From: Alicyclobacillus pomorum DSM 14955 | GTDB taxonomy: Bacteria > Bacillota > Bacilli > Alicyclobacillales > Alicyclobacillaceae | Assembly: GCF_000472905.1 (NCBI RefSeq) | Contig: NZ_AXAR01000022.1 | Coordinates: forward strand, 1-48,217 | DNA: 48,217 nucleotides | Direction of reading: 5' to 3' | Made by a program: the position numbers and the translations under genes | The notes under the pieces: model-generated | Database searches by the model: none | What the model was told of the DNA's origin: nothing | The model's input: the letters and a program-made list of their open reading frames with translations, nothing else | Shown: positions 8,297 to 39,954 of the stretch, in pieces | How the letters are laid out: each line of letters opens with the position of its first letter | Position numbering within the stretch: position 1 is the first letter of the stretch

Positions 8297-8463
8297 TACC
8301 CTCCCTCCCGTAACATATGGGTAAATTAAACTAATTATTAATTTAACTGTATATTCACACTGCACTAGGCGTTGTGCTCCGCCAAAGTGAGCCGTTCTTT
8401 GCAAAGGAGTGACAGGAAAGCTCGGGGAAAACGTGACGCATGTTATGCCAGAGTTTTCGCTGA

Positions 8464-8545: not shown

Positions 8546-8556
8546 TCGATATTAAG

Positions 8557-8964: not shown

Positions 8965-9106
8965 GTCAAGCATCCCCCTTGACGAAGAGATTCTGAGGGA
9001 CAGCATGCGCTAAAGTACCGTTGGTTATTCACTCAAATTTCGGTAACCAGTTTTGCCTTGACTGTCGTGGGTTAATGCTCAATAAACACTTGAACTATTT
9101 GTTCGA

Positions 9107-9276
9107 TCAAGAAGCGGCAAGATGACAAAACGCCCCCATCCAATGAAGGATGAGGGCTACTATATGGGGAAGAGAGAAGCTCCACCATTGCATTATTGAC
9201 TGGGCGACGTTGACGTAAACATTACCACGGAACGTGAGGAATGATAGACCAGAATGTATGGAGGAGGTAAATTAGT
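9107..9276 (+). repeat. Dispersed repeat, copy R5
   Basis: AAGATGACAAAACGCCCCCATCC, hairpin with GGATGAGGGC, then the shared block through GTAAACATTACCACGGAACG, ending in a decayed SRAP-like tail (NVRNDRPECMEEV in one frame). 9008-9106 has no gene. Confidence 0.75.
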
Positions 9277-24006: not shown

Positions 24007-24074
24007 CCTACACTGCTCCGTTACTTCACCATACTCTGGAACACTCATCGTTTCATACACAATGATGCATTATC

Positions 24075-24920: not shown

Positions 24921-25224
24921 GTCGGCTCCCCCGCATTTTTTCGAAAATTCATTCTGAGTATGAGCAGTTACGGAAGCTCTTATCAAGGGAAAAAATGTAT
25001 GTCTAAAAGGGGTTATCAGAACGGAATTTTGGGTTAATGAATCCATAAAAGCACAATTCATTAGGGATGTTTAATAATACCGAAATTGACTCGTGCCATG
25101 GACCAATATTCCTCATATTACCTTTCCCTCTCACAATGCTGAGGGGCAGTTCACGACATAATCACCAAAAATTTGATATTACGTCGGTTTTAACCGAAAC
25201 CGCTCCTCATTTGATCCTTAACGG

Positions 25225-25653
25225 TTACTCTTTTAAAAAGGGACTGATTTGTGCGATCAGGCTTTTAAGATGGGTCGCTGCCTCGCCATAGGTCTCCTTG
25301 GCTTGTCGATTCTCAGTTTGCAGAGCGAACATCTCGAGATCTGCTTGGATTTTTTGCAAGGATGCTGCCAGTAAAGGTTTTTCCTTAATTGGCGGCTCCT
25401 TTTGCACATCCTTATAGAGGTCAACGTACACATTTCCATTTGAGTCCACTTGTGCAATAAATACGTCTCTGAAATCTGATGCACCCTGCTTCATGATTTC
25501 TCCCAGCAACCATTCCCTTGTATAACCGAAATGTTGTAAGGACTTTTCCATGACGTGCCCGTCAATGATGAGCAGTCTGGATTCATTCTCTGAAATGACT
25601 TGTATCCCGGCATCTTTGGGAGTCAGCGGTTGTAACTCGGTCTTCTTCGCCAA
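25225..25653 (-). pseudogene. Isolated C-terminal domain of YetF/DUF421 protein
   Basis: The 142-residue frame matches the cytoplasmic DUF421 domain of YetF-like proteins: LLIIDGHVMEKSLQHFGYTREWLLGEI...DFRDVFIAQVDSNGNVYVDLYKD. The family normally has three N-terminal membrane segments, absent here. The TTG at 25653 has no ribosome binding site, and the DNA upstream does not encode membrane helices in any frame. YetF domains occur in proteins affecting spore or membrane functions. Best read as a 5'-truncated remnant. Confidence 0.6.
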
Positions 25654-26145
25654 GATAATGGATAGAGTTAGGTTCCGTGCATTCGTCGTGAAGAGCTAAT
25701 TCTGACTAACGGTATGTAACTTTCATTTCCCATGACCAATTCTAGCAGATAATTACCTGGTACCAAAGAGTCGTACTTTATTGCATATAATTTGTATTTT
25801 GTTACAGAAATAGGACAAATATTATTCCGCTCATCGAGAGTGAGGCGATATGCCGAATTCCCGTGGTTCTTGAAGCCGGTCACTCCTTACGAGGGATGTC
25901 AAATACGTTGCATGGGTTAAATAATCTGGAGGCCTATCTTAGTTTAGATGAAGATGGATGACTGTAAAACAATAACAATTCAGGGAGAAACAACAATTTA
26001 AATAAACCGAAAAAATGGTATCTGTAGTCGGTTTTTGGGGAACACGCGAGAAGCTACGGTACTGTCGTGAGCGAGGATCCACTTGAGCCGTCCAAAGCTA
26101 GGCCAGCCAACGAAGAAACCCGTCTAGGTCCCGGGCGGGCTACTT
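25654..26145. other. Mostly gene-free boundary region
   Basis: A 71-codon minus-strand frame (25668-25883) with only a GTG touching AAGGA is not convincing. Otherwise no gene; a terminator lies at 26004-26037. Confidence 0.35.
26004..26037 (+). terminator. Rho-independent terminator
   Basis: AAACCGA (26004-26010) pairs with TCGGTTT (26028-26034), followed by TT. No plus-strand gene precedes it. Confidence 0.5.
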
Positions 26146-26313
26146 TCAGGAAGCGATGTTTTTCAGAACGTCTTCTTTCGGTCTCCGAACGATAGTCGTC
26201 TTTGCAGGAATCATAATCGGCTCACCGGTTTGAGGATTGTGACCCCTGCGTGCGCTCCGTTCCGTAATCTTCAGCGTACCGATGGCACCTCCGTTGATTT
26301 TTACCCTTTTCAC
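26146..26313 (-). pseudogene. Truncated HU/IHF-family DNA-binding protein
   Basis: 55 codons matching the beta-arm and C-terminus of HU: VKINGGAIGTLKITERSARRGHNPQTGEPI, then IPAKTTIVRRP. The N-terminal helices (about 40 residues) are absent: an in-frame TAG directly precedes the GTG at 26313. Lies at the left margin of the conjugation module, suggesting a breakpoint here. Confidence 0.75.
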
Positions 26314-26350
26314 CTATGTGGCATTGTACGACAAAATTGGTCTCTAACAT

Positions 26351-26410
26351 GTATCTCTGTAGGTATCTCTGTGGGTATCCATCTGAGTGTCTCTGTGACT
26401 ATCCTTACAT
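26351..26410 (+). repeat. Degenerate 12-bp tandem repeat, five units
   Basis: Units GTATCTCTGTAG, GTATCTCTGTGG, GTATCCATCTGA, GTGTCTCTGTGA, CTATCCTTACAT follow each other at exactly 12-bp spacing. It sits between the HU fragment and the terminator of the conjugation operon. Could be an iteron array, a recombinase arm site or coding relic. Confidence 0.65.
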
Positions 26411-26411
26411 A

Positions 26412-26438
26412 TAAAAAATCCCTTACGGCTGTAAGGGA
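26412..26438 (-). terminator. Terminator of the conjugation operon
   Basis: On the minus strand TCCCTTAC-AGCC-GTAAGGGA then TTTTTTAT, 40 bases after the stop of the last gene (26481). Confidence 0.88.
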
Positions 26439-26480
26439 AATTAAAAAGACTTTATGCCTTCCGCTATACGTAAGCCATTT

Positions 26481-27275
26481 TTATAATGCCTGTTCGCTGG
26501 CCTCTCTCACTGTCTGTTTTCCGCCTCCTAACCAGTCCTGTTCCTCTCCTTCCGTGAAGAATAAATGTTGCATGTCATCAGGTAGAGCGATCTGTTTTCG
26601 TAATGCTATATACACTCTCTGGAGGAAGTTCTTACGGGCCTCGGTGGGAGTTACCCATACCACGGGTTTCATGTGCTTACCCAGTTCTTTGTGCAAGTTG
26701 GCATAGGCGCGGAACTTACCTTCCAGCTTTGCGGTCGATTCCGTGGCGTTGTCATATTCAATCCACGCGGAACGACCTCCATTAACACCAACTGCCGCGT
26801 CTGGACGTACGACTCGACTTTTTTCCGATTCTCCGTTTCCATACAGGCGACGAGACAGAGCTATTTCTTCCGTAATCTCACGCGAGGATAGCCACGTTAC
26901 ATTCTGTCGGCCGTAGCGTTGCACAGTTCGCACCGCAATATTGTTGATTCCCATGTAGTGCGCTAACTGACCTTCCGGGGCCACTCGCACACGATGCTCG
27001 ATTCCAAGCATGTCGTAAACGTATCTAACGCCAGTCACGGTTAGGGAATAAACCATGAATCTAAAGCGAGGACCCGGCAAGAATCGATGCCGAATCATCG
27101 GTTCTTCCTCGGTACCTGCCTTTTTGTATATCCGTCTAAAGCAATACGCGACTTTCGTATCGGTCCATCCCGTCAATATCTTTATTTGTTCGCGGGTAAG
27201 CATCCCGCCATCAAACAACATCCCCAATACCTGTTCCTCGGGCTTGAACGGTAACTCGGGCCACTTTAGAATCAT
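26481..27275 (-). CDS. Replication-relaxation family protein
   Basis: 264 residues. An N-terminal winged helix (EEQVLGMLFDGGMLTREQIKILTG) is followed by an alpha/beta domain with RPDAAVGV and AWIEYDNATES, the PDDEXK-nuclease-like pattern of the replication-relaxation family (Pfam PF13814), reported for Gram-positive plasmids where it is needed for plasmid replication and DNA relaxation. ATG at 27275 with GAGGTGAT upstream. Directly follows the coupling ATPase (9 bp), last gene of the operon. It is the only candidate here for the DNA-processing (relaxase) role. Confidence 0.8.
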   Translation of the reverse strand: MILKWPELPFKPEEQVLGMLFDGGMLTREQIKILTGWTDTKVAYCFRRIYKKAGTEEEPMIRHRFLPGPRFRFMVYSLTVTGVRYVYDMLGIEHRVRVAPEGQLAHYMGINNIAVRTVQRYGRQNVTWLSSREITEEIALSRRLYGNGESEKSRVVRPDAAVGVNGGRSAWIEYDNATESTAKLEGKFRAYANLHKELGKHMKPVVWVTPTEARKNFLQRVYIALRKQIALPDDMQHLFFTEGEEQDWLGGGKQTVREASEQAL

Positions 27276-27284
27276 GCAATCACC

Positions 27285-29723
27285 TCACAGGGAAAATAGA
27301 ACGTCATCTTCGGATTCCGGCTCTTCTTCTCGCTTTTCCTGTTGCAACGGTGTTTTCGTCATCAGATAGTCGTCCAGTTCCGCGTCGATATCCTTTATGG
27401 ATCGACCGTCGCGGGCTTGTAACTCCCGGGCCTTCTCCAGTGCCAGCCTTGTAGCCTGTTCGATCTCCCGGGGATTGTCTTTGTTCACGGGTTTTCCTCC
27501 CGGTAAGTACATATACGGTGGGGGTACAGTCACCTCTAGGCTTCTCGGTTGACCATTGATTTTGGTGTAAACCGCAACCGTGCGCTCGGGCAGACCCTGC
27601 AAATAGGAGCGCTCAAAGTACCCATTTGTCATAGCCGCAACACTGGCCGCAGCGTCTGTCCCTTGGGCGCACGAGAAGATGTTCTGCACGTTGTTTTTGA
27701 CAGCGAGTTTTAGCCAGTCAGCGAATTGTTCAACGAACTGGGTACTCAGGCCGAGGGACAATCCGAATTTCCGGTCCTCCGCAATGATTTTTTCCTCTAC
27801 CGGGATCTGTACCTTGTGAGCCTCGTCAACTATAAGGAAGTGCGTCATGGAGCCAACTTGCCTTGTCTGCGCGGCCCTATGGTACTGCGTAATCAGAAAT
27901 CCGGCAGCGAGCTTCATTTGCTCTTTGCCAACTCCGAGGACATCCCAAAAGAAAATGTGGCCTTCGTCCATGTAGCGTTTGAGGTCTAGGCTAAACTCGC
28001 GCTGTCCAAACATACGGCGCATGGCCTTATTTGAGATAAACGGATTCAGACGGTTCAACAGCGGTCCCATCGCCTTCTCGATATTGCCCTCAATCGCCGG
28101 GAATTCTCGTTCCCAAAACATGCGGAGAACTGAGTCATGTACATGCGCGAGTACACGTTCGCGGAATCTCTCGTCAGTAAACAGCGGGATTAGGCCGACA
28201 ATGGTATGGGCCTGTGATTCGTCCTCCAGCAACGTCCGCAGCCCGTTTCTCAGCAGTCGGTCCATCTGCGGCGTGTCGCCACCGTAGGCGAATTTGAGCA
28301 ATTCCATCGCTTCTTCCGCCAAGTCGTCGGCAGATGTTCCCGGAGCCCTATAAAGCAGGTTCAGGCCGATAGGATGCTCCGAGTTTTTGAGCGATACATA
28401 GTGAACCTTACTCCACTGTTCGTCTGTCAGGCCCGCGTTCAACATACGGGTAAGCAATATCACGATGGTTTCCTGCGCCGGGTCTATCAAGCTAAACCCC
28501 GGGGAACACGGAGACGATTTCCACTGCTGGATTAACGAATCGCACATAGCCACTAATTCCGAGGATTTACCCGAGCCAGTCATGCCCGTAAGCAGGAAGT
28601 GCTTCTGGAACTCTTTGAACGGAATCGCCACTTGCCTTTCCTTCTGAACGGGGTGCTTCATCACTCCGATATACACGCCCTGGTTCAGCTCGCCATCCTT
28701 CAACGTCTGCGCGTGTTCACGTACAGATGGGATGTACTGAAAGACCGGATTGCGCGAGTCGGGAATATGCCACAGGCAAGCCAATTCCGGGGCCGTGAGT
28801 ATCATTTCATGAAATCTTGGAGGTCGGCCTGACCGTATGCTTTCCGCAGCCTTTTTCCCACGAAAATAGCGGTTTTCCGTGAGGTAGTTGTACGATTGCC
28901 AGTCCATAAAGCCGTTGACCATCGACCGCAAGCGGGAGTTCGCAACTGCTTTCACATACTTCTCCTGTCCTTTATCTGGAGTGGCGCATACTCCAAGTCG
29001 AATCCACGTTTGAAAACCGAACTCCTGACCCGTATATCGGCGGCGAACTGACTGGACGCGGTTCTGGTCTTGCGGGTCTAGATCCGACATCTTTGTTTGT
29101 TTCGTGGTCTTCTTAGGAGGGGTCCCGTGGCCGTCGCTTACAAGGTCTCGGGCGACCTCGTGTCCTAAGTGTGCCAAACGATCCAATGGGTCAATCCGCT
29201 GGTCTCCTTGCTTGCTCACGGCGCGTTCGGTACGCTTCACAACGTTGTACAGCGTTCTGTGAGACGCAGGGGAAATGACGACATCGAGAACAGTTTCTTC
29301 GTTGCTTTCCGCGCCAACCCCCATACCGTACAGAATCGACGGGAGCGGGTCTCCATCCTTTAGCGTTCCAAGGGGAAGGCCCTTGCGGTCTCCTTTTTGC
29401 CCGAGTTTCAGGAACGTGCCCATGTATACGCGCTGTAAAAAGTCCATATACTCGGGCTGTACTTCTGCACGTTCCAGTTGAGGAAAGGACGAAAGAAACG
29501 CGGCAGAAAAGCCTTGCATCCTGTCTTCGGCAATCCCCATGTACCACTCGACCTCTCCCGCTGTCGTCTTGCGGAAAATGGAGCGAAACATGGTTTGCCC
29601 TTTGCGAAGTGCTTGCACCATAGGCCGCTGGAATCCCCACAACTTGTTCAGGAACTGCGTTACTTGGCCCGAGTGAAGTTGATGATTGTCTTTCGGTAGA
29701 ATCCGAAGGTAACGCCAATCCAT
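27285..29723 (-). CDS. VirD4/HerA-like conjugation ATPase
   Basis: 812 residues. A P-loop GMTGSGKSSELV lies mid-protein, with Walker B THFLIVDEAHK near residue 630, and a long N-terminal region of about 350 residues without clear membrane helices. This matches the coupling/HerA-type ATPases of Gram-positive conjugation systems that deliver DNA to the transfer channel. The ATG at 29723 has GGAGG 8 bases upstream. Acidic C-terminal tail (REEEPESEDD). Sits between the transglycosylase and the replication-relaxation gene. Confidence 0.82.
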   Translation of the reverse strand: MDWRYLRILPKDNHQLHSGQVTQFLNKLWGFQRPMVQALRKGQTMFRSIFRKTTAGEVEWYMGIAEDRMQGFSAAFLSSFPQLERAEVQPEYMDFLQRVYMGTFLKLGQKGDRKGLPLGTLKDGDPLPSILYGMGVGAESNEETVLDVVISPASHRTLYNVVKRTERAVSKQGDQRIDPLDRLAHLGHEVARDLVSDGHGTPPKKTTKQTKMSDLDPQDQNRVQSVRRRYTGQEFGFQTWIRLGVCATPDKGQEKYVKAVANSRLRSMVNGFMDWQSYNYLTENRYFRGKKAAESIRSGRPPRFHEMILTAPELACLWHIPDSRNPVFQYIPSVREHAQTLKDGELNQGVYIGVMKHPVQKERQVAIPFKEFQKHFLLTGMTGSGKSSELVAMCDSLIQQWKSSPCSPGFSLIDPAQETIVILLTRMLNAGLTDEQWSKVHYVSLKNSEHPIGLNLLYRAPGTSADDLAEEAMELLKFAYGGDTPQMDRLLRNGLRTLLEDESQAHTIVGLIPLFTDERFRERVLAHVHDSVLRMFWEREFPAIEGNIEKAMGPLLNRLNPFISNKAMRRMFGQREFSLDLKRYMDEGHIFFWDVLGVGKEQMKLAAGFLITQYHRAAQTRQVGSMTHFLIVDEAHKVQIPVEEKIIAEDRKFGLSLGLSTQFVEQFADWLKLAVKNNVQNIFSCAQGTDAAASVAAMTNGYFERSYLQGLPERTVAVYTKINGQPRSLEVTVPPPYMYLPGGKPVNKDNPREIEQATRLALEKARELQARDGRSIKDIDAELDDYLMTKTPLQQEKREEEPESEDDVLFSL

Positions 29724-29736
29724 ATACACAACCTCC

Positions 29737-30741
29737 TTATTGCGCCCATTTCGGCGTTGAAATTCCTAGCATCTGCAACGGGTTTTGTGGACCTGTCACG
29801 TTGATGTTTCCGGTTGTGAAGCCTATCACCGAGCCAGCCTTTACGTCGCTCCCGTTATTGGTCCACGCCACAACGCCTCCCGAGAATTTGAGCGTCCCGG
29901 CCCCGGTGTCTAGTGAGATGGAATCACCCGAGCTTCCGTACTGGATGGAAAGCGTACCGTCGACAGGCGCGATTATCGGGTCCCACGCTGGCGCCGATAA
30001 TGTGATGTTGTTCCCGTTGTTTTGACTCAACTTTGAATTCGTGCCGCCAAGGAACCAGTAACCGTTTCCGGCCTTTTGCGGCGGCGTCGTGGCTATAAAC
30101 CCTTCTGTGTAGCCGAAAACCGTGTTCACGTACGCCTGTGTCTCCGACCCGTACCAAAAACACGCGAGACTCCAACGATGTCCATACTGGTTGTAAAGCT
30201 GTCTCAGGTACGTGGCCGCTGCCATCGCCGCATCGGCAGGGTCAAACGGGCTTGCTGAGCCATCCCCGTTTGCGTCTACGCCGTATCCTCCGTACTGCTT
30301 GATGCGTGATGGGTTTGTGTCGAATGTGGAGTTGTTCGAGTACGGGTTTGCCCATCCAGACCATGAAGCGGGTTCAAACTGAAACATCCCTGCGGCGTGC
30401 GTTCCAGGCGCGTAGTTCGTGGCGTCCGGCCTAAATCCAGACTCGGTTTCCGCTTCCCCGGCAAGTAGCTGTAATGGCACACGTTCTGCCATAGCGGCGT
30501 GCTGTAAGTCGGGTAGATACTTGGCCGGAATAACGCCGGGCTTTACCGCGACAGGCCCGTTCCAGTCTCCCGGAAGCGGCATGTTTGCAACAGCGTCAAA
30601 TGCTTGTGGGTCAAGAATCGTTAAGAATGTGACCAATGACATGAAAGGCAGGAGGATGAAAGGAGAAATCGCGAGACCCGCAATGAGAACGGTTTTACCC
30701 GGATTCGCCTTTACCCACCGCAATACCACGGCTTCCAGCAA
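29737..30741 (-). CDS. VirB1-like lytic transglycosylase
   Basis: 334 residues: one N-terminal membrane helix (VLIAGLAISPFILLPFMSLV), then an SLT-type transglycosylase domain with the catalytic Glu in AGEAETESGF (about residue 98), GMFQFEPASWSGW and YLRQLYNQYG. It opens peptidoglycan for the conjugation channel. The last 100 residues look like a degenerate lysostaphin-type beta domain (IIAPVDGTLSIQYG... GSVIGFTTG) without the His residues of active M23 peptidases. TTG at 30741 chosen for AGGAGG 7 bases upstream. A terminator (30778-30800) precedes it. Confidence 0.85.
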   Translation of the reverse strand: MLEAVVLRWVKANPGKTVLIAGLAISPFILLPFMSLVTFLTILDPQAFDAVANMPLPGDWNGPVAVKPGVIPAKYLPDLQHAAMAERVPLQLLAGEAETESGFRPDATNYAPGTHAAGMFQFEPASWSGWANPYSNNSTFDTNPSRIKQYGGYGVDANGDGSASPFDPADAAMAAATYLRQLYNQYGHRWSLACFWYGSETQAYVNTVFGYTEGFIATTPPQKAGNGYWFLGGTNSKLSQNNGNNITLSAPAWDPIIAPVDGTLSIQYGSSGDSISLDTGAGTLKFSGGVVAWTNNGSDVKAGSVIGFTTGNINVTGPQNPLQMLGISTPKWAQ

Positions 30742-30777
30742 AGGAATCACCTCCTACTAAGCGGCTTTGAACGGCAA

Positions 30778-30800
30778 TAAAAAAGACCCCGAGCGGGGTC
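30778..30800 (-). terminator. Intra-operon terminator before the transglycosylase gene
   Basis: Minus strand GACCCC-GCTC-GGGGTC then TTTTTTATT. The stem overlaps the stop codon of the VirB6-like gene (30799-30801). Confidence 0.85.
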
Positions 30801-32592
30801 ATCTTATCGGCCTAAATCGACGAACGGGCCGATTGTTTTGCGGTTGTTGTGTCGTAGATACCTGAACCTTTCTCGCCACCATCTTTGGCGCTGGCTTTTC
30901 GGTTTTCGGCGGATTCTGCGACATCGTTGCGACCTTTTCCTTCAAAGCCGATTGACCGGATTTCACGCGATATACCTTTGGTGGTTCTGAACTATCCCTT
31001 TGAACCGGGGGAGCGATATCGCGCACTCTCTTTCGTATCGGCTTCTCATTCTTGGTTTGGCTCTGCTCTGTGAAACTTTTATTTTCACTGACGAAGTGAG
31101 CCATAACACCTTTCGTCACAGGCTTTACTGGACGTTTCGGTTTTGCGTCATCCACAACACGCTCCGTATTTGTGGGACGCAAGCGACCTGCCAACGCGCC
31201 TTTTGTAGCGGTCTTGGTATCGCTTTGTGCCTGTACGCCAGTGGGTTCAGTTGCCGCTTTCCTGTTGTGTATCTGCGCGATTTTCCGAGCCATGTTGCGA
31301 ACTGGCGCGGTTCCGCGTTGAGCCTCAATCTTGGCCTTTTGAATTTGCTCTTTCCAAGACCACTGATATTCTTTCGGAAGTCGGCTCGATATCGCTTTGA
31401 TGAACCAACCACGGTAGATAATCGCCATCACGCAGATTACGCTATTGATCATCAATCCGACCATCATCGTTCCGTAGTTCGCCGAGAATAAGGCGTTTGA
31501 CACGAGCTCCAAGACCAACAGCGTAATCCCGAGATACATGGCATGCAGAACCTTGGAGATAAGCACCCCGGCTGTGTTTTTAAGCGTCTTGAAAAAGTAA
31601 TTCCATCCGTAGTCCGGGATAATCCCGAGCGGAAACGTCACCGCGAGCTTCAACACCAAGAAGATAAACCCGAACGTAAACGCTAGGAGAAGGCAACCCA
31701 TGAGCCCCACAAAGATGATGGGTGGCAGAATCGCCAACGGGAAGAACACATAGAACGCAGCCTCTGCCAATCGTGCAGATGGGTCAGGATTCGCGTTTGC
31801 GTACGCTCCCGCCCGCTGAGTGCTCGTGTCGTAAAGGATTCCGGCCAGATTGCTTCGTGCGTCTCCGCCTTCCTCGTGACTGAGCATCAGATTGACCCAG
31901 TTATCAGTTGGCTTGATGGTTTGCTGTTTCCCGTTGTCATCCTTCCATGTCTTCCCGACTTCCTGCTTGCTCACGTTGTAGTCTGACAGGTTCGGGCTTG
32001 CCTTACCGAATTCGCCTTGCTCCCACGGGGTTAACACGTACTGGTCCCAAATCACTGAAAGCGTGTTGTTGATATTCGGATTCACGCCGACTGTTCCCGT
32101 GGCCGCTTGGCCTATCTCTGACGCCGTATTGAGCATCCAGCCGGACATTGCATCGTCAAACGTCGTCAGTTGCTTCATGACGGGCGCGAAGTTCGTGTAG
32201 AAGTACATCGCCATGCCCGTTATCACAACAAACATCGTGATAATTTGCATTACCGATGCGTGATGCGCCCGGACGAAGCGATACAGCAGGAACAACGCGA
32301 CGATTGAGACCATGGCAGGGAACAGCGGCAAGAACACCGAACTGTAACCCTTATGGAGCAAGTTCCCGATTTCCTGTTCCACCGGGTTCAGCAACGAGCT
32401 TGGGTCGATAGAGAATTGCAGGAACGAAAGCAAGGTGTTGAAACTCATCGTCCCAAGCGTAAAAACGAAGTTGGCGACATCGTTTAACGCGCCCGGGACT
32501 ACACCGCTCAACGGATTAAGTGTCTTCCACGCGCTAGGCGGGATGTAGTCCCACTGGTACGCTGTAGGCGGGTACTGATTCCACGGAATCAA
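30799..32592 (-). CDS. VirB6/TrbL-like polytopic membrane protein
   Basis: 597 residues. About seven or eight membrane segments in residues 40-405 (e.g. VFLPLFPAMVSIVALFLLYRF, ILPPIIFVGLMGCLLLAF, YLGITLLVLELVSNALF) and a long basic cytoplasmic tail rich in Lys/Pro/Arg (about 410-597). This is the size and layout of the inner-membrane channel protein of Gram-positive type IV secretion systems. The TTG start at 32592 overlaps the VirB4 stop by 4 bases (TTGA), with GGTGGCGGTGAG upstream. Confidence 0.8.
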   Translation of the reverse strand: MIPWNQYPPTAYQWDYIPPSAWKTLNPLSGVVPGALNDVANFVFTLGTMSFNTLLSFLQFSIDPSSLLNPVEQEIGNLLHKGYSSVFLPLFPAMVSIVALFLLYRFVRAHHASVMQIITMFVVITGMAMYFYTNFAPVMKQLTTFDDAMSGWMLNTASEIGQAATGTVGVNPNINNTLSVIWDQYVLTPWEQGEFGKASPNLSDYNVSKQEVGKTWKDDNGKQQTIKPTDNWVNLMLSHEEGGDARSNLAGILYDTSTQRAGAYANANPDPSARLAEAAFYVFFPLAILPPIIFVGLMGCLLLAFTFGFIFLVLKLAVTFPLGIIPDYGWNYFFKTLKNTAGVLISKVLHAMYLGITLLVLELVSNALFSANYGTMMVGLMINSVICVMAIIYRGWFIKAISSRLPKEYQWSWKEQIQKAKIEAQRGTAPVRNMARKIAQIHNRKAATEPTGVQAQSDTKTATKGALAGRLRPTNTERVVDDAKPKRPVKPVTKGVMAHFVSENKSFTEQSQTKNEKPIRKRVRDIAPPVQRDSSEPPKVYRVKSGQSALKEKVATMSQNPPKTEKPAPKMVARKVQVSTTQQPQNNRPVRRFRPIR

Positions 32593-35093
32593 CTCACCGC
32601 CACCTGCCTTCTGCGGGCCTGACCGGGTGTCGTACTGAACACTTCTTTCAGGCTTTCCGGCAGAATGTCAATCTGGATTTCACCGACTCTCCCGAGCGGG
32701 TCACGTACTATGCCGCGTCCTTTCTCGTAGGCGGAGAATGTTTTCTGCCAATCCTCGTCTGTCGGCAAGTTGAGGATTTCTACGGCGTGTTTCACTTGGA
32801 TGCGACTCTCCAGCTTGAAGAAGAACATCCAACCAAGGTTCGCCGTGATGTCGTCGTTCTCGTCCTTCGGCAGTAGCACGTCCGGGTTTTGTACGCCAAG
32901 GATGAGGATTAGATTCATGGCGCGTCCCATCAGCAGAACCTTGTTGATTAGCGCACGGCCTTCGGGTATTGCCCGCAGCATCCACGCCTCGTCAATCAAG
33001 AAGAATTTGATGGTGTTTATGTCCGACTCCATCAGCTTTTTAAGGCCGATCTGCGTGGATAGGTACAGCATCGACACCGCGAAACGCTGGCTGTCACGCC
33101 ATTTGTCCGGGTTCGTTTGCGAAGCGTCAGGGAAATCAAGACCCAACAGGCTTTGCACAACCAATCGTGCGGACGCAACCGAGCGGGATATACCGTCCTT
33201 ACCGAACACGCAAGACTTCACCGGGTCCGTACGATACTGCTCCAAGAGCCGGATAAACAGCTTCCCGACCCTTTGCTCTTCCGGGTCATCGGATTCGTTG
33301 ACTTGTTCCTCTAGGCACTGGATGAACGTATCCATGTCCCATGTGTCGCCTTGGTACATCCGATGAAGCGCCGCGTCTATTACGATGGACCCGTATTTGT
33401 CCTCTCGGCTGCTAGATATGTTGAACAGAATCGACAGCCAGCTTTGCGCGATAGCCCGACAGTCGTGCGCGGTTTTCGCCAATCGGAACGGGCTGAACGC
33501 CGCGTCTGAATCCGACCCATACCGCAACCAGTACGCTTCATCCTGCCACTTGTCGTAAAGGCTCCAGTATTCGTCCTGCTTAGGGTCTAGGACGAATCCC
33601 ACGCCTCCCATAGCGAGGATGTGGTCACCGATGTACTTCGCTGTCATGGACTTACCAGACCCGAGCGTACCAACCAAGGCAATAGATCCCGTGTGGTTCA
33701 GTACCGTCATCGGTCTTTCCGGCGCCATGAATACCGGTTTGCCGCTACCGAGCAAGTGACCGAGCAACATCCCTTCCGGGTCCCCTAGTGCGCTCGTTCC
33801 CAAAGGCGCGGCACAGGACAGCACTCTCGGTTCGGCTGGCACGTTCCAATGGACGCCACCGACCGTACAGGGGAAGAATGCTCGCCACAGCGCAATTGCA
33901 TCGCCCGGAGGATGTACGGGCTTTGCGTACCCGTCGTAGGCGTTAATCAGGATTTCCTCTCGCTCGATTAGCGTGTCCTCGTTATCCGCACCAATCGCGA
34001 GGAATGCCTGGAATTCGACAAGCGGCATGCGCTTCAGCTTTTGCTCTAGAACTGGTGCATCTGCAAGACCGTCCTCGAGGTCGAGCGATAACTCGCCATC
34101 CTTCTCGAATTCTTCCCACTGGTCTAAGGCCGCGCCTTTCTTGCGTCGAACCTTACCACGCGCCAAATGCCCGGGCGTTACCTCGAAATGCACACAGGCG
34201 TCAATCGGGAAGTCCAGCCGTTCCAGCGGATAGTAAAGCCACTCGTCACCGAAGTCCTCGATGGAGTCTGTGAAGTTCGCCAACGCCATGATGGACTGAT
34301 AACTGACTCGCTTGTTGATATGCACTATCCTCAGCCGAAACAGGTCCTCTTTAACGTAGGCGGACGCTATATCAATCATCGTGGAACGGTAAGGCCGTTT
34401 GGATTTCCGCCCGCGTCTCATGGAGGTTGCTGTCGCCAGTTCCTTCGGCATCCTGCTTGGCGGTTCTTCGAGACCCCTGAAATATGGTTTTCGGTGTAGC
34501 CATTCGATGTCGGCAGGACTCGCACGCTGTACCGAGCCGCCCATCGCGGCGTTTAGTTTCGCCAACAACTGTCTGTCTGCAATCTCGGCCGTTTCAATGA
34601 GATGCACCGGGATCTCTCGTCCTACGCCAAACACTCTGTCCTTTAGGTAAGCAAGACCTCCAAGAACCTGTTGCGCCACTTGTGACATGGACCGTTTGAT
34701 ATGCTCAGAGTCCGAAAGGGCCGTGTCGATACGAAACCCTGCCACCGATGTACGCAGCGGAAGGACGAGATACACTTCCCGGTCGTACGCCTGACGGAAC
34801 GCCAACTCTTCAATCGCGGCGTCAACATGCGCTTGCCATTCTTCGCTATCGGATCGGGAGCGCATGTGTTCTTCCAACTGCCTGAGTGACTTTTGCCTTG
34901 CAACACTCAGCAACATGCCTTGCCCGCTATACATGTGCAGGAACCGTTCAAACCTCTCGGAAACCGACCACTGCTCATTCTGTCCCCGATGTTCATACGG
35001 GAACTGGGGTAACCGATACACGCCCCAAACGCGGCCCCGCGAGTCGAATATCCGGTTTTCGTGCCAGTGTATAGCCGGGAAAAGTTGAGCCAC
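32589..35093 (-). CDS. virB4: VirB4-family conjugation ATPase
   Basis: 834 residues. P-loop GTLGSGKSMTAKYI near residue 475, Walker B TIKFFLIDEAWML near 710, and the long N-terminal VirB4 region. It powers assembly of the conjugation channel at the membrane. The GTG at 35093 has GGGAGGTG 6-8 bases upstream; the longer frame is rejected because it runs through the hairpin that holds that site. Translationally coupled to the next gene. Confidence 0.92.
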   Translation of the reverse strand: MAQLFPAIHWHENRIFDSRGRVWGVYRLPQFPYEHRGQNEQWSVSERFERFLHMYSGQGMLLSVARQKSLRQLEEHMRSRSDSEEWQAHVDAAIEELAFRQAYDREVYLVLPLRTSVAGFRIDTALSDSEHIKRSMSQVAQQVLGGLAYLKDRVFGVGREIPVHLIETAEIADRQLLAKLNAAMGGSVQRASPADIEWLHRKPYFRGLEEPPSRMPKELATATSMRRGRKSKRPYRSTMIDIASAYVKEDLFRLRIVHINKRVSYQSIMALANFTDSIEDFGDEWLYYPLERLDFPIDACVHFEVTPGHLARGKVRRKKGAALDQWEEFEKDGELSLDLEDGLADAPVLEQKLKRMPLVEFQAFLAIGADNEDTLIEREEILINAYDGYAKPVHPPGDAIALWRAFFPCTVGGVHWNVPAEPRVLSCAAPLGTSALGDPEGMLLGHLLGSGKPVFMAPERPMTVLNHTGSIALVGTLGSGKSMTAKYIGDHILAMGGVGFVLDPKQDEYWSLYDKWQDEAYWLRYGSDSDAAFSPFRLAKTAHDCRAIAQSWLSILFNISSSREDKYGSIVIDAALHRMYQGDTWDMDTFIQCLEEQVNESDDPEEQRVGKLFIRLLEQYRTDPVKSCVFGKDGISRSVASARLVVQSLLGLDFPDASQTNPDKWRDSQRFAVSMLYLSTQIGLKKLMESDINTIKFFLIDEAWMLRAIPEGRALINKVLLMGRAMNLILILGVQNPDVLLPKDENDDITANLGWMFFFKLESRIQVKHAVEILNLPTDEDWQKTFSAYEKGRGIVRDPLGRVGEIQIDILPESLKEVFSTTPGQARRRQVAVS

Positions 35094-35094
35094 T

Positions 35095-35125
35095 AAAAAC
35101 ACCTCCCTCAATCTTGGGGAGGTGT
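35095..35125 (-). promoter_or_regulatory. Hairpin that masks the virB4 ribosome binding site
   Basis: Minus strand ACACCTCCC-loop-GGGAGGTGT followed by TTTTTAG. The 3' arm is the virB4 ribosome binding site, and the loop contains the TGA stop of the TcpE-like gene (35108-35110). It also looks like a terminator. Ribosomes finishing tcpE would open it. Confidence 0.75.
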
Positions 35126-35524
35126 ACGACGAATGATGCACTTTGCGTTAAGGGTTACATTCATGGGCTTTTTTCGTATTCGGACTGGTGTCCATCCGTT
35201 TGTTCCGTGCGGCCTAAAGAGGTACGCAACGAAGTTTAGTACATAGAGGGGAAGGGGCTTTCCGTCAGGGTCGATCTTGGTCGAAGCCCACGCCCCAAGT
35301 GCGGCTAACCCGAAGATCACAAGAGGCTTTGACAATGGCCTACCCGTAACGATAGCGGATAGGCCTGAAATCATCGGTTGCAAGAAACGCGCTGGAATAA
35401 GGCAAATGAGGAACGCAAGCATCCCGTCTAGGGTGATACGAAAGCCAAACGGAAACTTGAAATTCCCCAAACTGGTGAGCGCGGGCCGCTGTTGCCACAG
35501 CTTTCTATATGTCCTGTTCGCCAT
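35108..35524 (-). CDS. TcpE-like conjugation membrane protein
   Basis: 138 residues; FPFGFRITLDGMLAFLICLIPARFL and a second hydrophobic pair precede the TKIDPDGKPLPLYVLNFVAYLFRP segment, as in the TcpE family (YddD-type) of Gram-positive conjugation systems, where two membrane helices are followed by a conserved DGK-YL motif. ATG at 35524 with AAGGTGAT upstream. Encoded 9 bp after the pilin-like gene. Confidence 0.75.
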   Translation of the reverse strand: MANRTYRKLWQQRPALTSLGNFKFPFGFRITLDGMLAFLICLIPARFLQPMISGLSAIVTGRPLSKPLVIFGLAALGAWASTKIDPDGKPLPLYVLNFVAYLFRPHGTNGWTPVRIRKKPMNVTLNAKCIIRRTPPQD

Positions 35525-35533
35525 TACATCACC

Positions 35534-35875
35534 TTATAGCTGCTGGAACAGGCCGGCGAACCAGCTAATGAGAGGACCGAGCGCCTTCGGGTCGAGTACC
35601 ATCACGCCCACGATTACAGCAACAACGACCAACGAAATGAGCTTTGTATGTTTGTGCGTAATGAAGTACCACGTAGCCAGAATCGCCAAGAACAACAGGA
35701 ACACGAACGCCACCTGCGGCATGACGTAGATATACACCCCGCTCCCCGGGCCGCTACCGCCAACTCCTACAGACGGTACACTTGCTAATGGATTGCTAGC
35801 AGCAAATGCAACCGATACACTGCATACTGCGGTTAAAAACATTGCAGCTATGCTTCTCATAACCGCTTTTTTCAT
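35534..35875 (-). CDS. VirB2/TrbC-like pilin or TcpD-like subunit
   Basis: 113 residues with a cleavable signal peptide (AMFLTAVCSVSVAFAA), a Gly/Ser-rich linker, and two hydrophobic helices (YVMPQVAFVFLLFLAILATWYF and LISLVVVAVIVGVMVL). This layout is that of VirB2-type pilins, which form the transfer pilus or channel lining. ATG at 35875 with GGGAGG 8 bases upstream; position just before tcpE and virB4 agrees. Confidence 0.7.
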   Translation of the reverse strand: MKKAVMRSIAAMFLTAVCSVSVAFAASNPLASVPSVGVGGSGPGSGVYIYVMPQVAFVFLLFLAILATWYFITHKHTKLISLVVVAVIVGVMVLDPKALGPLISWFAGLFQQL

Positions 35876-35877
35876 CG

Positions 35878-36468
35878 TTAGTACCTCCCGAAAGTAATGG
35901 TTTTAATGACGTGCCAAGCGAAGGAATCCAGAACCGGCACGTGAAAACGCAAATTCACCAACGCCCAAGAAATCCCGATAACAACGACAGCCAACTTGAA
36001 AATCAAGCAAACAATCTCTTCGCGTAGCGAATTCACTGGAATAGCCAGCGGTTCAGGTAACACCCTCACCCAGTACGGCAAGGGCCAAAACAACTGAACG
36101 CCTTCCGGGTTGAATAGGTCGATAAACGGGTGACTTGCGTATCCAATCACCATAGACCACGCGAGGCTATCCCACGGCATCCCCCCAGGCAAATCAAAGT
36201 ACAAGAAACGGACCAACAAGGCCCATACTGCAACGACTGCAAGTAAGCTGTGTGTGACAGTCCTGTGTTTCAAGAAGCGGGCGATTATGCCGACAAGCGG
36301 CACTCTGTGCGACACCGCGCTCTCGGGGTGGTCGATATCTGGAACCGTGGCCGATAGTCCTGACGCGATAATCAAAACTGGAGACCACCAATGTACTGGA
36401 GCATGTGTCTCGACCAGTATCAGTTCCATTGCCAACGCTCCCGTCATCGAGTGCGTGCGGTAGTTCAA
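35878..36468 (-). CDS. Membrane-bound metal-dependent hydrolase, YdjM/DUF457-like
   Basis: 196 residues, about four membrane segments. Conserved metal-binding pattern: NYRTHSMTGAL, VPDIDHPES (DxDH), LKHRTVTHSL (HRxxTHS) and YASHPFIDLFNP. This is the YdjM/YfhO-like family of inner-membrane hydrolases. The TTG at 36468 has GGAGG 7 bases upstream and follows an intra-operon terminator. Role in the element unknown; stop is 2 bp from the pilin start. Confidence 0.85.
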   Translation of the reverse strand: MNYRTHSMTGALAMELILVETHAPVHWWSPVLIIASGLSATVPDIDHPESAVSHRVPLVGIIARFLKHRTVTHSLLAVVAVWALLVRFLYFDLPGGMPWDSLAWSMVIGYASHPFIDLFNPEGVQLFWPLPYWVRVLPEPLAIPVNSLREEIVCLIFKLAVVVIGISWALVNLRFHVPVLDSFAWHVIKTITFGRY

Positions 36469-36488
36469 CGTTGTCCCTCCTTTCCCAC

Positions 36489-36519
36489 TAAAAAACGCCT
36501 CTCGCATCAGCGGAGGCGT
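36489..36519 (-). terminator. Intra-operon terminator before the hydrolase gene
   Basis: Minus strand ACGCCTC-loop-GAGGCGT then TTTTTTAG, 20 bases before the hydrolase start. Confidence 0.82.
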
Positions 36520-36549
36520 ATGTCAAATGCAAGCAATCAAAACATGGTA

Positions 36550-36815
36550 CTAGCCTGTACTCGTCACTTTGCCCCAGTTGATTGTGGCTTCGCAGTACGG
36601 CATCTGGTCGTACACTAAAGACGTTTGTCTTGCCTTCCATGTGGTCTAGACAAACCCGAAGATTACGTTCATATTGCATGTCGCTTGTGTATAGATCTCC
36701 ACCTTCAGCAACGCTTCGGCTCTGTGATTTTGCAAACTGGCGCGGGCGCTGCATGAACGACTTTATGGACTGGTGCTGGATCAACTTCTACGTGATGAAC
36801 TGTTGCGTGAATCAT
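36550..36815 (-). pseudogene. Degenerate small gene(s)
   Basis: An ATG at 36815 (AGGAGTTG 6 bases upstream) opens a 36-codon frame (MIHATVHHVEVDPAPVHK...) ending at 36705. A coding-like continuation lies in another frame, VEIYTQATCNMNVIFGFV, stop TAG, then TTWKARQTSLVYDQMPYCEA..., ending at 36550 just before the terminator. A frameshift plus a nonsense codon in one small gene would explain this. A third, 98-codon frame across the region lacks a start site. Confidence 0.35.
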
Positions 36816-36820
36816 GTAAA

Positions 36821-37201
36821 TCAACTCCTGTTTGCCTCAAATGTTTGTGATGGGGTGTATGGCGCGTGAAATGTTCCAGTGATTTCATTGCCTTTCAGCA
36901 TTCCGGTCCAAACCGCCGTGCCTACTCCCGAGGCGGTAAACGTGATTTGTCCGCCATTCGTGATGCGGCCCGTAACGGGCATGGAATCAGTCGATGATGT
37001 ATCAGCAACCTCCCCAGCCAGTGACCCGTCGGTCTGCTCTGTCAAGGTGAGCTTATCTACCTCCGTGTTCCGGCTGTACTTCACCGTCCACGTTCCGCTT
37101 ACGTTTGGGGTCCGAGAGAAAATACCGCACCCAGCTAGAGAGGCAACGACAACAGCGCCAACAACACCGGCAACGAGCTCATTGCGAAGTAGCCACGTCA
37201 A
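36821..37201 (-). CDS. Small lipoprotein (126 aa)
   Basis: TTG at 37201 with GGAGGG 9 bases upstream, inside the end of the preceding gene. A hydrophobic signal with lipobox (VVVASLAGCG) is followed by a beta-rich domain (GTWTVKYSR..., TLTEQTDGSLAGEV, GTFHAPY) resembling lipocalin-like or extracellular adaptor folds. Likely surface-anchored, perhaps an exclusion or mating-surface protein; function not established. Confidence 0.7.
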   Translation of the reverse strand: MTWLLRNELVAGVVGAVVVASLAGCGIFSRTPNVSGTWTVKYSRNTEVDKLTLTEQTDGSLAGEVADTSSTDSMPVTGRITNGGQITFTASGVGTAVWTGMLKGNEITGTFHAPYTPSQTFEANRS

Positions 37202-37358
37202 ACTTGTATCCCTCCAGATTCAATGTCGTTTGGATCAGTCGCACCTTACGCATTGGAGCATTGCACACGCGACATACGGGGCTGCTTACCACGGTTCCCC
37301 GGCTCTCGACGGTGCGCCAATACCCGCACTTCCTGCAGATAAAATGCTCTATGTTCAT
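37179..37358 (-). CDS. Rubredoxin-like zinc-ribbon microprotein (59 aa)
   Basis: ATG at 37358 with GAGGCG 8 bases upstream. CRKCGY near the N-terminus and CRVCNAPM about 20 residues later form a four-Cys zinc ribbon. It overlaps the lipoprotein gene by 23 bp and follows the sigma-like regulator by 21 bp. Confidence 0.65.
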   Translation of the reverse strand: MNIEHFICRKCGYWRTVESRGTVVSSPVCRVCNAPMRKVRLIQTTLNLEGYKFDVATSQ

Positions 37359-37379
37359 GTCCATCGCCTCATAAAAGCG

Positions 37380-37895
37380 TCAATGTACGGCAACTTTGGA
37401 CTTCCACAGGCCCGAGATATAGACACCTTCGGTATCCTTCGTATCGTCAAACAGGGCCATCTGAACGCCGCTGTTTTGCAGCCTTCGGAGCTTGGCTTTG
37501 GCGCGTTCCGCGTACTTTTGAACTGTGCTTTTTGTAACGCCCATGTCCTGGGCTACTTCCTGAAAGCTCATTCCGCCCATGAGCAAACGGAGAACACGCG
37601 ATTCCTGACATGACAGGCAGCGCATATCGAGTGCCACCGGGGCGTCCGTTTCGTGGTTTTCATGCTCAAACATCTCGTAGGTGTCGTGGCTTACGGCGAT
37701 GCTGCTTAAAACATCGGGGTCAACTAGCACAGTCCGGGTGTCTTCGTAATCCTCCCCGGTCATTTCTCGGAGGGCATAACTGAGGCTTTCAATCATGCTG
37801 ACGTAGATTTTCTTTTGCTCGAAGTCCTTGCAGAGGTTCTTTTTCTTGCGGAGAAGGACAATTTGCTCTTGGTACTCCCGAATGAAGTCTTGCAT
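37380..37895 (-). CDS. Sigma-region-4-like regulator
   Basis: 171 residues. The C-terminal part (SCQESRVLRLLMGGMSFQEVAQDMGVTKSTVQKYAERAKAKL) is a sigma-70 region 4 / LuxR-type helix-turn-helix; the N-terminal half is helical, as in ArpU/phage late regulators. ATG at 37895 with AGGAGTG upstream. It is placed just before the transfer operon and could activate it; this is inference. Confidence 0.75.
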   Translation of the reverse strand: MQDFIREYQEQIVLLRKKKNLCKDFEQKKIYVSMIESLSYALREMTGEDYEDTRTVLVDPDVLSSIAVSHDTYEMFEHENHETDAPVALDMRCLSCQESRVLRLLMGGMSFQEVAQDMGVTKSTVQKYAERAKAKLRRLQNSGVQMALFDDTKDTEGVYISGLWKSKVAVH

Positions 37896-37904
37896 GTTCT
37901 TCAC

Positions 37905-38118
37905 TCCTGTTTTTGTGAGATCGGAACACGTGTGCCACGCCCACCGCTGCATCGAGGCCGCCCTGTTCCGGCGTGACATACCGCTCGCATTTCGCATTTT
38001 CCGGCGGTCGCGCAGACGTCGAGGTCGAAGCAAAACTCTTCGTTTAGGCGATTAGACAGGTCCTGGGGTGTTTCCCATTCGCCGCTTGACGACGGAACAG
38101 TCTCCCGCGTTCAGCGTC
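37905..38118 (-). pseudogene. Fragment of phage DNA N-6-adenine methyltransferase
   Basis: EWETPQDLSNRLNEEFCFDLDVCAT (from 38080 leftward) matches the N-terminal signature of phage Dam (PF05869) enzymes; the match continues in another frame as PPENAKCERYVTPEQGGLD, showing a frameshift within about 10 bases of codon 25. The catalytic DPPY-like part is missing; the sigma-like gene begins instead. Confidence 0.65.
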
Positions 38119-38129
38119 ATCACGAGGCC

Positions 38130-38363
38130 TCAGTTTCCCTCAAGCTCGATTCGGATCGACCTGTTCTCCCACGAGAGCCGGATGCCTTTGACCGCTCTGA
38201 ACTCTGGCTATTTGTCGAGTTGGGAGACGAGACTTCGGAGCGTGACCTTGATGTTGCTCACATTCGACTTGTCGGGAATCTTGACCCAACAAACATCCAG
38301 CACACATCCGTCTGTTTCGGCTCCAGTTCCGTCACATTCGCCTTACGCTTCATCCCCAATCAC
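38130..38363 (-). pseudogene. ORF with in-frame TAA and TAG
   Basis: A single frame from GTG 38363 to TGA 38130 reads MIGDEA-stop(TAA)-GECDGTGAETDGCVLDVCWVK...RSLVSQLDK-stop(TAG)-PEFRAVKGIRLSWENRS... Both sides of each stop are coding-like. Probably a decayed single-strand-binding or recombination protein gene of unknown family; stop-codon readthrough is less likely. Confidence 0.35.
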
Positions 38364-38372
38364 TTCACCACG

Positions 38373-39203
38373 CTAGAGAAGCGCCTTATGACGCCAACTG
38401 TCACCAACCATCCTGATTCCCTGGCACATCTCGAGAATGCGATCCACGATGGCGTTGCCCACGTTCACGTACTTCGCTCGAATTTCAGCAAGGCTCATGT
38501 TCGTCGTGATGATAAGGGAGCGGTTGCGCTCGTAACGCGTGTTGATGATTTCGTAAACCGTCTGCTCGACCCAATCGCTGACTCTCTCCTTGCCCAGGTC
38601 GTCGATAATCAGCAGGTTGCAACGCGTGAACCGTCGCATCATGTCCATCTCTGACACCCTGTCGTCACCATAGGCACTGCGAACCTGAGCAAGCAGGCTC
38701 GTGACCGTGCCGAACACCACCGTGTGCTCGCGGCCGATAAGTTCCATGGCGATAGCTGCCGCCAGATGGGTTTTGCCGGTCCCGACGGTTCCTGTCAGCA
38801 GCAGCCCTTTGCCCGCTTCCGGATCGAATCCTTCCGCATACGCCTTGGCTGTCGCAAAGGCCCCGGTATTTGCGGGCGTGACCTCAAACCGTTCGAATGT
38901 CCGGGTCCGCCAGCGTTCGGGAAGCGCGCTTCGGCGGAACAGCGCCTCGATGTGCGCTTCCCGTTGCCGATCCTGTTCGAGACGCTCTTGTTCTTCGCGC
39001 TGGCGCCGTTCTTCCTCGCGCTTGCGGACGAATTCCGGACAGTCACAGACGAGCGGGCCGAACGGGTATTCCGTGTCGCCGAGCTTGACGGTCGTGATGT
39101 GCCGCATGGGGCTACCGCAATATCGGCACTCAGCCGCCGAAGAATTTTGCTTCGATGCGAGCCCACTCATCATCCGGCTGAGTGATTGACCGATGCTTTC
39201 CAC
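38373..39203 (-). CDS. DnaC/DnaI-like helicase loader
   Basis: 276 residues: N-terminal zinc finger (CRYCG... CDCPEF), a charged coiled-coil linker (KREEERRQREEQERLEQDRQ), and an AAA+ domain with P-loop GTVGTGKTHLAAA, Walker B NLLIIDDLGKE and sensor ITTNMS. It loads the replicative helicase onto DNA. The GTG at 39203 has GGAGG 8 bases upstream, inside the end of the DnaD-like gene (74-bp overlap). With that gene it forms a replication initiation module. Confidence 0.9.
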   Translation of the reverse strand: MESIGQSLSRMMSGLASKQNSSAAECRYCGSPMRHITTVKLGDTEYPFGPLVCDCPEFVRKREEERRQREEQERLEQDRQREAHIEALFRRSALPERWRTRTFERFEVTPANTGAFATAKAYAEGFDPEAGKGLLLTGTVGTGKTHLAAAIAMELIGREHTVVFGTVTSLLAQVRSAYGDDRVSEMDMMRRFTRCNLLIIDDLGKERVSDWVEQTVYEIINTRYERNRSLIITTNMSLAEIRAKYVNVGNAIVDRILEMCQGIRMVGDSWRHKALL

Positions 39204-39954
39204 CTTGTGCCCCTCCTTTCGCATCCTTCAACTCCGACCCCTTCGATGATTTGGCATGAATCTGCGCAAGCTTCGCCTTGCGGTTTTTTCCTCCACGGCC
39301 TTCCGTCCGCCAGTTGGCGAGCGTGCTGCGGATGTATGAGAGCTTGCGGACGTTTTGCACCGCGGCCTGCTTGATCGCATCGAGAATCCAGTCCGCGGAG
39401 TATTCATCCAACAATGCGACAAGTTCCTCGGCCACCATGCTCGTAACAGCGCCGATCTCGGATTCATAGGCTTGCGAGACCAACGCAAGCGCCTTAGACG
39501 ATGATGATGATTTCCTGTCTTGTTTAGTTTCGTTTTGTTTATGTTTAACTAATGTGCTACCAGAACGCTGCTGCTGTGACTCCTCAAACGCTCCTGCTAT
39601 GCCTACCACTGCGTCAACCGGTCTGTCCACTGCTGTGGCTCCTCCCGTGACTACTTGTGTGCCTACCTTGTGACTTTCAAAGCTGACCATCCGATACTTC
39701 CCGACGCGATTCGAACAACCTTTCTGGTATTCGATCAAGCCTTTCTGTACGAGTTGATTACGTGCTTTATCTAGGCCTTGCCGCGAAAGACCGGTCATGA
39801 GTTGCAGCGTTTGATTGGTCGCAGTAAACCAGTCAACCCAACCGGTAACGTTGTTTATGCTCATGAGCGAGTACCATAAAGCAACTTGACCTGTTGACGG
39901 ACCGTTTAGCATTGACCAATCCCGGAACGCGTTCAACTCTCGAAAGAAGTTCAT
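39130..39954 (-). CDS. DnaD-like replication initiation protein
   Basis: 274 residues. N-terminal winged helix region (FTATNQTLQLMTGLSRQGLDKARNQLVQKG) and a C-terminal DnaD-type domain (VAEELVALLDEYSADWILDAIKQAAVQN...RSTLANWRTEG), joined by a Ser-rich linker. Phage and plasmid DnaD proteins recruit the helicase loader at the element's origin. ATG at 39954 with GGGGAAGTG upstream. Confidence 0.88.
   Translation of the reverse strand: MNFFRELNAFRDWSMLNGPSTGQVALWYSLMSINNVTGWVDWFTATNQTLQLMTGLSRQGLDKARNQLVQKGLIEYQKGCSNRVGKYRMVSFESHKVGTQVVTGGATAVDRPVDAVVGIAGAFEESQQQRSGSTLVKHKQNETKQDRKSSSSSKALALVSQAYESEIGAVTSMVAEELVALLDEYSADWILDAIKQAAVQNVRKLSYIRSTLANWRTEGRGGKNRKAKLAQIHAKSSKGSELKDAKGGAQGGKHRSITQPDDEWARIEAKFFGG

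Follow-up and report, generated by a model that had tools for sequence, protein, structure and literature searches.

A terminator-like hairpin fused to the virB4 ribosome-binding site in an Alicyclobacillus conjugation operon, and its counterparts in related conjugative elements

Conjugative elements have to remain silent in their host and yet switch on long operons when needed, which they are known to achieve through repressors, terminators, and antitermination, among other means. In a conjugation operon of Alicyclobacillus pomorum DSM 14955, hairpins followed by T-runs are located between the genes, and one of them includes the ribosome-binding site (RBS) of virB4. Are these hairpins of one kind, are they found in other elements, and what may they do? 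I analyzed the window, that is, the whole stretch of 48,217 nucleotides (G000:C15 within the compared genomes; its family includes Alicyclobacillus species), together with the corresponding loci of relatives. No Rfam family matched within the window.

Hairpins between the transfer genes

The transfer operon lies on the minus strand in the order of a sigma-like regulator, a 126-aa protein, a ydjM-like protein, a 113-aa protein, tcpE, virB4, virB6-like, SLT, an 812-aa protein, and Replic_Relax. A serine recombinase gene is found at the right end of the window. The genes that matter here are as follows.

37380..38033, minus strand: sigma-70 region 4-like regulator, upstream of the transfer genes (Pfam PF08281)
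35878..36468, minus strand: ydjM-like membrane protein gene (Pfam PF04307)
35534..35875, minus strand: gene of the 113-aa protein (no Pfam family matched; its homologue adjoins tcpE in G040)
35108..35524, minus strand: tcpE (Pfam PF12648)
32589..35093, minus strand: virB4 ATPase gene (Pfam AAA_10; homologues in relatives)
30799..32592, minus strand: VirB6-like membrane protein gene (name from the preliminary description; no Pfam match; homologous genes follow virB4 in relatives)
29737..30741, minus strand: SLT (lytic transglycosylase domain) protein gene (Pfam PF01464)
26481..27275, minus strand: Replic_Relax gene, close to the operon end (Pfam PF13814)

The three hairpins, named HP1 to HP3, and their parts are as follows.

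36495..36519, minus strand: HP1, terminator-like hairpin before the ydjM-like gene; ACGCCTCCGCTGATGCGAGAGGCGT followed by TTTTTA, -17.1 kcal/mol
35099..35125, minus strand: HP2, terminator-like composite hairpin; ACACCTCCCCAAGATTGAGGGAGGTGT followed by TTTTA, 9-bp stem, -16.9 kcal/mol
35099-35095, minus strand: T-run of HP2, followed by the virB4 GTG at 35093
35100..35107, minus strand: Shine-Dalgarno (SD) sequence of virB4 as judged by sequence, GGGAGGTG, within the 3′ arm of HP2
35108..35110, minus strand: stop codon TGA of tcpE, the final three bases of the 9-nt loop of HP2
30785..30800, minus strand: HP3, terminator-like hairpin with a T-run; GACCCCGCTCGGGGTC followed by TTTTTTA, -10.4 kcal/mol

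As had been described preliminarily, all three T-run hairpins are present on the minus strand between operon genes, and by their sequences HP1-HP3 look like intrinsic terminators inside the conjugation operon. It was also confirmed that the 3′ arm of HP2 is the virB4 RBS (35107-35100), that its loop holds the tcpE stop codon (35110-35108), and that HP3 overlaps the TGA of the VirB6-like gene (30801-30799). The HP2 stem ends with GGGAGGTGT, which is the SD of virB4 and is followed by TTTTA and GTG; in a fold of 35160-35040, all SD bases are paired. HP2 is a composite in which an SD in the 3′ arm, a T-run, a start codon, and a preceding short sequence (the box, described below) come together. 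In HP1, the box match is weak and the SD, AGGAGG, lies separately downstream of the hairpin, and HP3 has no box match (four mismatches at best). The three hairpins do not form one class. HP2 fits a composite terminator/RBS family by its sequence, HP1 may be another member of the same family, and HP3 looks like an ordinary terminator.

Would such hairpins be expected by chance? With a loose rule, six hairpins were found on the transfer strand of about 24000-39954, and 20 shuffles gave 2 to 16, indicating no excess. A strict rule, requiring 6 or more pairs, 5 or more G-C pairs, a loop no longer than 9, and 5 or more T in 6, leaves only HP2 and HP3 on the transfer strand of 26401-37400; the shuffled mean is 0.1, and two were reached in 1 of 300 shuffles. 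HP1 escapes this rule because of a bulge. Conservation is stronger evidence than these counts. Elsewhere in the window, five dispersed similar hairpins, GCCCTCATCC..GGATGGGGGC-GTTTTGTCAT, lie on the minus strand of 4900-9200 (at about 9157, 8506, 7540, 6007, and 5283), and hairpins of another repeat lie on the plus strand near 3367, 3588, and 5650.

The composite hairpin at virB4 and at other genes

I examined 32 VirB4 starts of the order (G033, G051, and G042:C63 being outside this sample). A C-rich arm, a G-rich arm holding the SD, and a T-run precede the VirB4 start codon in 19 of the 32 homologues, including that of the window, while the predicted stem is weak or ambiguous in three of the 19 (L037, L049, and L085). 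The dual terminator/ribosome-site design that had been proposed is right for HP2 and recurs at virB4. Two further VirB4 homologues from another family (G091) carry the arrangement, one of them being only a 170-codon frame. The other 13 of the 32, namely two of G040 and 11 others, do not have it. G040 contains the nearest relatives (about 61% identical), and the absence of the virB4 hairpin there counts against the lock explanation given below. The gene preceding virB4 is tcpE in the window and a sigma-like regulator in at least G002, G003, G013, and G053; the hairpin stays constant at virB4 across species while the upstream gene varies.

On a VirB4 tree of 31 rows (L048, L049, and L184 were left out as broken or short genes), the trait needs 3 label changes versus 10.2 for shuffled labels, although long branches make the deep forks unsure. 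In the MAFFT alignment A2, which leaves out L032 and L035 because their virB4 sites are identical to others over the aligned stretch, column covariation was not above shuffles; this test is hard to read because some stems are misregistered. In the alignment fitted to the structure (A4), column covariation was above shuffles. The recurrence of HP2 in relatives suggests selection, as far as can be judged from sequences. A search of genome contigs with a single VirB4 protein gave eight matching stretches and no confirmed relatives. In G016:C78 (L049), the VirB4 gene has several stops, and the start-site hairpin is still recognizable.

Is the composite hairpin limited to virB4? A covariance model (R1) was built from 17 virB4 sites alone. 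On eight conjugative elements (379,924 bases), R1 gave 73 matches at E ≤ 0.5, 71 of which are on the transfer strand, whereas 20 chromosomal stretches of 20 kb (400 kb) gave none. In 48 of the 73 matches, a start codon with an open frame of 40 or more codons is found no farther than 4 nt from the start predicted by the model, versus 951 of 4,000 random positions on the transfer strand. Under a wider start rule, the numbers are 58 of 73 and 1,941 of 4,000, which weakens the start-codon argument. Without the model, a composite scan of the same elements counted 63 cases on the transfer strand versus 5 on the opposite strand; 800 kb-strand of chromosome contained 12, and nine shuffled runs together gave 1. 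When arms were swapped within an element, a copy's own arms paired better than the swapped mean in 51 of 61 copies (p = 6e-9; matches below 20 bits left out), with the split point taken from each copy's own fold and thus somewhat favouring own arms. In only 15 of the 61 copies did the own arm pair best of all, which was counted against the lock explanation.

In the window's own genome, virB4 is the sole strong R1 match (33 bits; the next has 21.4). Twelve weaker matches were considered as composites: one (L108) is a composite by the scan and 11 are not, several being plain terminators by eye and two resembling what I take to be T-box terminators. In the A. acidocaldarius plasmid pAACI02, each of the three matches checked, out of four listed, ends within 3 nt of an annotated CDS start. 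One match to the composite model on this plasmid precedes a sigma-like HTH gene (NC_013207.1, 40134-42607, together with a sigma-70 family gene), and this HTH gene is a possible candidate for a self-regulated reader of the box. Class-wide, a second model (R2) matched at E ≤ 0.02 in at least 164 of 398 genomes. Among 30 loci from the R2 search, the composite scan recognized 13, comprising 10 of the 13 inside the order and 3 of the 17 outside it (L156, L164, and L167); L156 and L164 have a common box. In an element of G043, a composite hairpin precedes a T2SSE-type ATPase gene that contains, in frame, an intein-like Hint/LAGLIDADG stretch (L118, 16174-18768).

The box preceding the hairpins

Within elements, a short sequence is repeated at the foot of the hairpins, and its type is specific to the element or the element group. 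Across the element families, beyond the window, it is asymmetric, mostly oriented with transcription, and located just before genes. The types and their counts on the transfer strand, with one mismatch allowed, are as follows.

TTTTGYCNTRCA, in G002, G003, and G024: 19, 17, and 14 sites in G003, G002, and G024, respectively; at most 5 in other elements; 11 in the control
TTTTGTCATGCA, in G040: a special case of TTTTGYCNTRCA
AWTTGTCCYACA, in G043: 13 sites in G043; 0 or 1 in other elements; 3 in 400 kb of chromosome
AAATTTCCCACG, in G046: 2 and 6 sites in two G046 elements; at most 1 elsewhere
AAATACTTACCC, in G058: 5 sites in G058; at most 1 elsewhere
TTTTTCTCTCG, in G091: 9 sites in G091; at most 2 elsewhere

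The TTTTGYCNTRCA box occurs at 141 sites on both strands in 610 kb of Alicyclobacillaceae elements, 91 of which are followed by a start codon 34-59 nt on, while 400 kb of chromosome has 23 sites, 8 with a start codon. The 91 sites correspond to 81 unique ones, comprising 15 composites and 66 plain sites without a hairpin and T-run by the rule used (a long-loop composite of G003 is scored as plain under this rule). Since 66 of the 81 sites are plain, the box has to do with more than terminators. In 38 of the 81 sites, a block of purines (TRRRR, usually TGARR) is located precisely 25 nt from the start of the box (the next commonest spacing occurs in 7), and C residues occur at +15 and +17. The purine block is not merely the SD, because it is also present where the SD sits farther on. 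This rigid, roughly helical spacing suggests a DNA-bound protein; an RNA reader is also possible, given the tie of the box to the SD.

Two other roles of the box were considered. Burial of the SD as the purpose of the plain copies was unsupported, being not above shuffled spacers (37 sites, p = 0.20). As for a guide RNA, scans of the opposite strand for the box complement yielded, at loose thresholds, between 0 and 14 sites per element; no hairpin with a T-run accompanied any of these sites, and no clear candidate emerged. At L115 (771-830) and comparable sites in L194 and L195, all in G024 elements, the SD lies about 20 nt farther and an ATG at +24 opens a short or in-frame frame; these frames may encode leader peptides.

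Box matches in the window are as follows.

35123..35134, minus strand: HP2 box, ATTCGTCGTACA, two mismatches to TTTTGYCNTRCA; its final three bases enter the stem
36517..36528, minus strand: possible HP1 box, ATTTGACATACG, weak, three mismatches to the consensus
30768..30779, minus strand: weak box, TATTGCCGTTCA, two mismatches, at the end of the HP3 T-run and before the SD and start of the SLT gene
26325-26336, minus strand: perfect box copy, TTTTGTCGTACA, past the operon end

The score of the HP2 box is equalled or bettered at 58 of 96,412 positions. For HP1, 408 of the 96,412 positions score as well, so that its membership in the box family is only suggested. The perfect copy has TGAAA 24 nt from its start and is followed by an ORF (26146-26313) whose product resembles the C-terminal part of an HU protein and may be one.

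Possible functions and comparison with known systems

The most likely reading of these sequences is that the hairpins serve as terminator/RBS locks against read-in transcription and are released by antitermination or by an element factor that reads the box. More specifically, HP2 would lock virB4 twice, being an intrinsic terminator with the virB4 RBS as its 3′ arm, and would be one copy of a module repeated in related conjugative elements; the chances of this specific form seem about even. The proposed module consists, in order, of the box, a C-rich arm, a loop, a G-rich SD arm, a T-run, and the start codon. RNA polymerase reading in without permission would stop at the T-run just ahead of the virB4 start codon, and any RNA that escaped termination would carry a buried virB4 SD and probably be translated less. 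The lock may be released by an element-encoded factor reading the box and/or by processive antitermination set up at the operon promoter. An antiterminator controlling the transfer genes had been suggested for this operon, and the idea fits the Gram-positive systems conAn and canT (PMC8955417, PMC11658703); the comparison of the window with Rfam gave 0 matches.

In the window, the stem could in addition be disturbed locally by the ribosome that completes tcpE. Can translational coupling explain the whole arrangement? The ribosome ending tcpE would melt HP2, prevent termination, and expose the virB4 SD. With the TGA in the loop, the terminating ribosome must occupy the stem, and the SD is otherwise fully paired in the fold. 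The earlier suggestion that upstream translation opens downstream expression is thus possible at this copy; as a family rule, it failed. The position of the stop codon that closes the longest upstream reading frame was compared in 62 copies, counting that of the window and omitting matches below 20 bits. It is within the hairpin in 3 copies; it precedes the hairpin by 1-15 nt in 15, by 16-40 nt in 19, and by more in 23; for 2 copies, no such stop was found. Because only 3 of the 62 stops are inside the hairpin, coupling is not the common principle, and the hairpin is retained where the upstream gene differs. Even for HP2, when the 5′ side was hidden to 35118, 35112, or 35108, the SD was still 73-80% paired via other structures, and a ribosome footprint reaching 15 nt past the stop would itself cover the SD. 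Coupling is an unlikely explanation.

The box may instead be recognized as double-stranded DNA by a repressor of the element, which would halt RNA polymerase during elongation at many genes in the manner of stoperators; the hairpins would then be added terminators. The box is asymmetric, repeated, mostly oriented along transcription, and immediately before genes, and its type differs from element to element. The box, C+15/C+17, and TGARR at +25 are rigidly spaced, perhaps by roughly one helical turn each, as for a DNA-bound protein, and such sites are described for cluster A phages in the available text of one report (PMC9283540). However, the box is tied to the SD and the start codon more closely than stoperators require, and I regard this explanation as somewhat unlikely. 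Quite unlikely is a promoter for an element sigma factor (TTGYCN-17-TGARRR), in which RNAs from the own promoter would lack the 5′ arm and hence have a free SD, while read-in RNAs would be locked, as in phage T4 gene e and IS10. The 17-bp spacing, the rigid second block, and the sigma-like genes present on the elements agree with a promoter. Still, the second block is purine-rich, unlike a -10 box, and in many sites, about 9 nt ahead of the start codon, it coincides in part with the SD and should therefore be transcribed; reading it as a -10 box is disfavoured. Could these simply be ordinary operon terminators so near the next gene that the stem happens to act as the SD? The low chromosomal rate of composites (12 in 800 kb-strand), the single composite among the 12 weaker R1 matches in the own genome, and HP3 are all consistent with this. 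The about elevenfold enrichment, the strand bias, and the boxes in the elements speak against it, as does the conservation at virB4 across families, and it seems very unlikely as a general account. An ordinary terminator is unlikely for HP2 and is the default for HP3.

Beyond the lock at virB4, I tentatively consider an element-wide control code in conjugative elements of Bacilli: an element-specific tag would stand at a fixed distance before the RBS of many genes and, at key genes including virB4, would be joined to a terminator/RBS lock. A single putative reader encoded by the element would silence or release the tagged genes all together, resulting in a private, immunity-like control of each element over its own expression. 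In the module described here, stop signal and ribosome site coincide in a single hairpin, which recurs through the element after a tag that varies among elements. If true, this would be a compact way of making many transfer genes deaf to read-in transcription, with an own key for each element, and the tag reader would be a well-defined thing to look for.

How does this module compare with known systems? The SD-sequestering hairpins of IS10/IS200 and phage T4 gene e bury the SD in read-in transcripts in a similar way; each of them concerns a single gene, in contrast to the repeated boxed module. In the pLS20-type conjugation operons, which are subject to processive antitermination by conAn, internal intrinsic terminators limit spurious transcription (PMC8955417). 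The likeness lies in a Gram-positive conjugation operon with internal intrinsic terminators; RBS-fused terminators or a repeated box do not appear in the excerpts of that description. In Tn916, the canT antiterminator bypasses the terminators T1-T3, found upstream of orf24, after orf18, and inside orf15 (PMC11658703). These terminators also lie between and within transfer genes, whereas the start-fused boxed design is not part of the Tn916 description as excerpted.

According to the available portions of the reports, the nearest analogues come from phages, namely SAS/ESAS and stoperators. In cluster K mycobacteriophages, SAS/ESAS is a motif (GGGATAGGAGCCC) repeated on a mobile genome near start codons, including the SD and mostly in one orientation, with an unclear role; ESAS consists of inverted repeats with a putative promoter (PMC3203893, PMC11373665, PMC12699233). 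The module described here differs in consensus, host, and element, and the reported motif, as far as those portions go, has no terminator hairpin with the SD in its 3′ arm. Stoperators of cluster A mycobacteriophages are asymmetric, oriented, repeated sites in short intergenic gaps (PMC9283540); an asymmetric site repeated along transcription is shared with the element families here, while no terminator or SD is fused to stoperators as described in the same portions. Among the literature matches listed, from a coverage outside which most subscription journals fall, there was no description of a repeated box-terminator-RBS module. Internal terminators in Gram-positive conjugation operons, such as those of pLS20 and Tn916, are known; their boxed, start-fused, and repeated form appears to be new.
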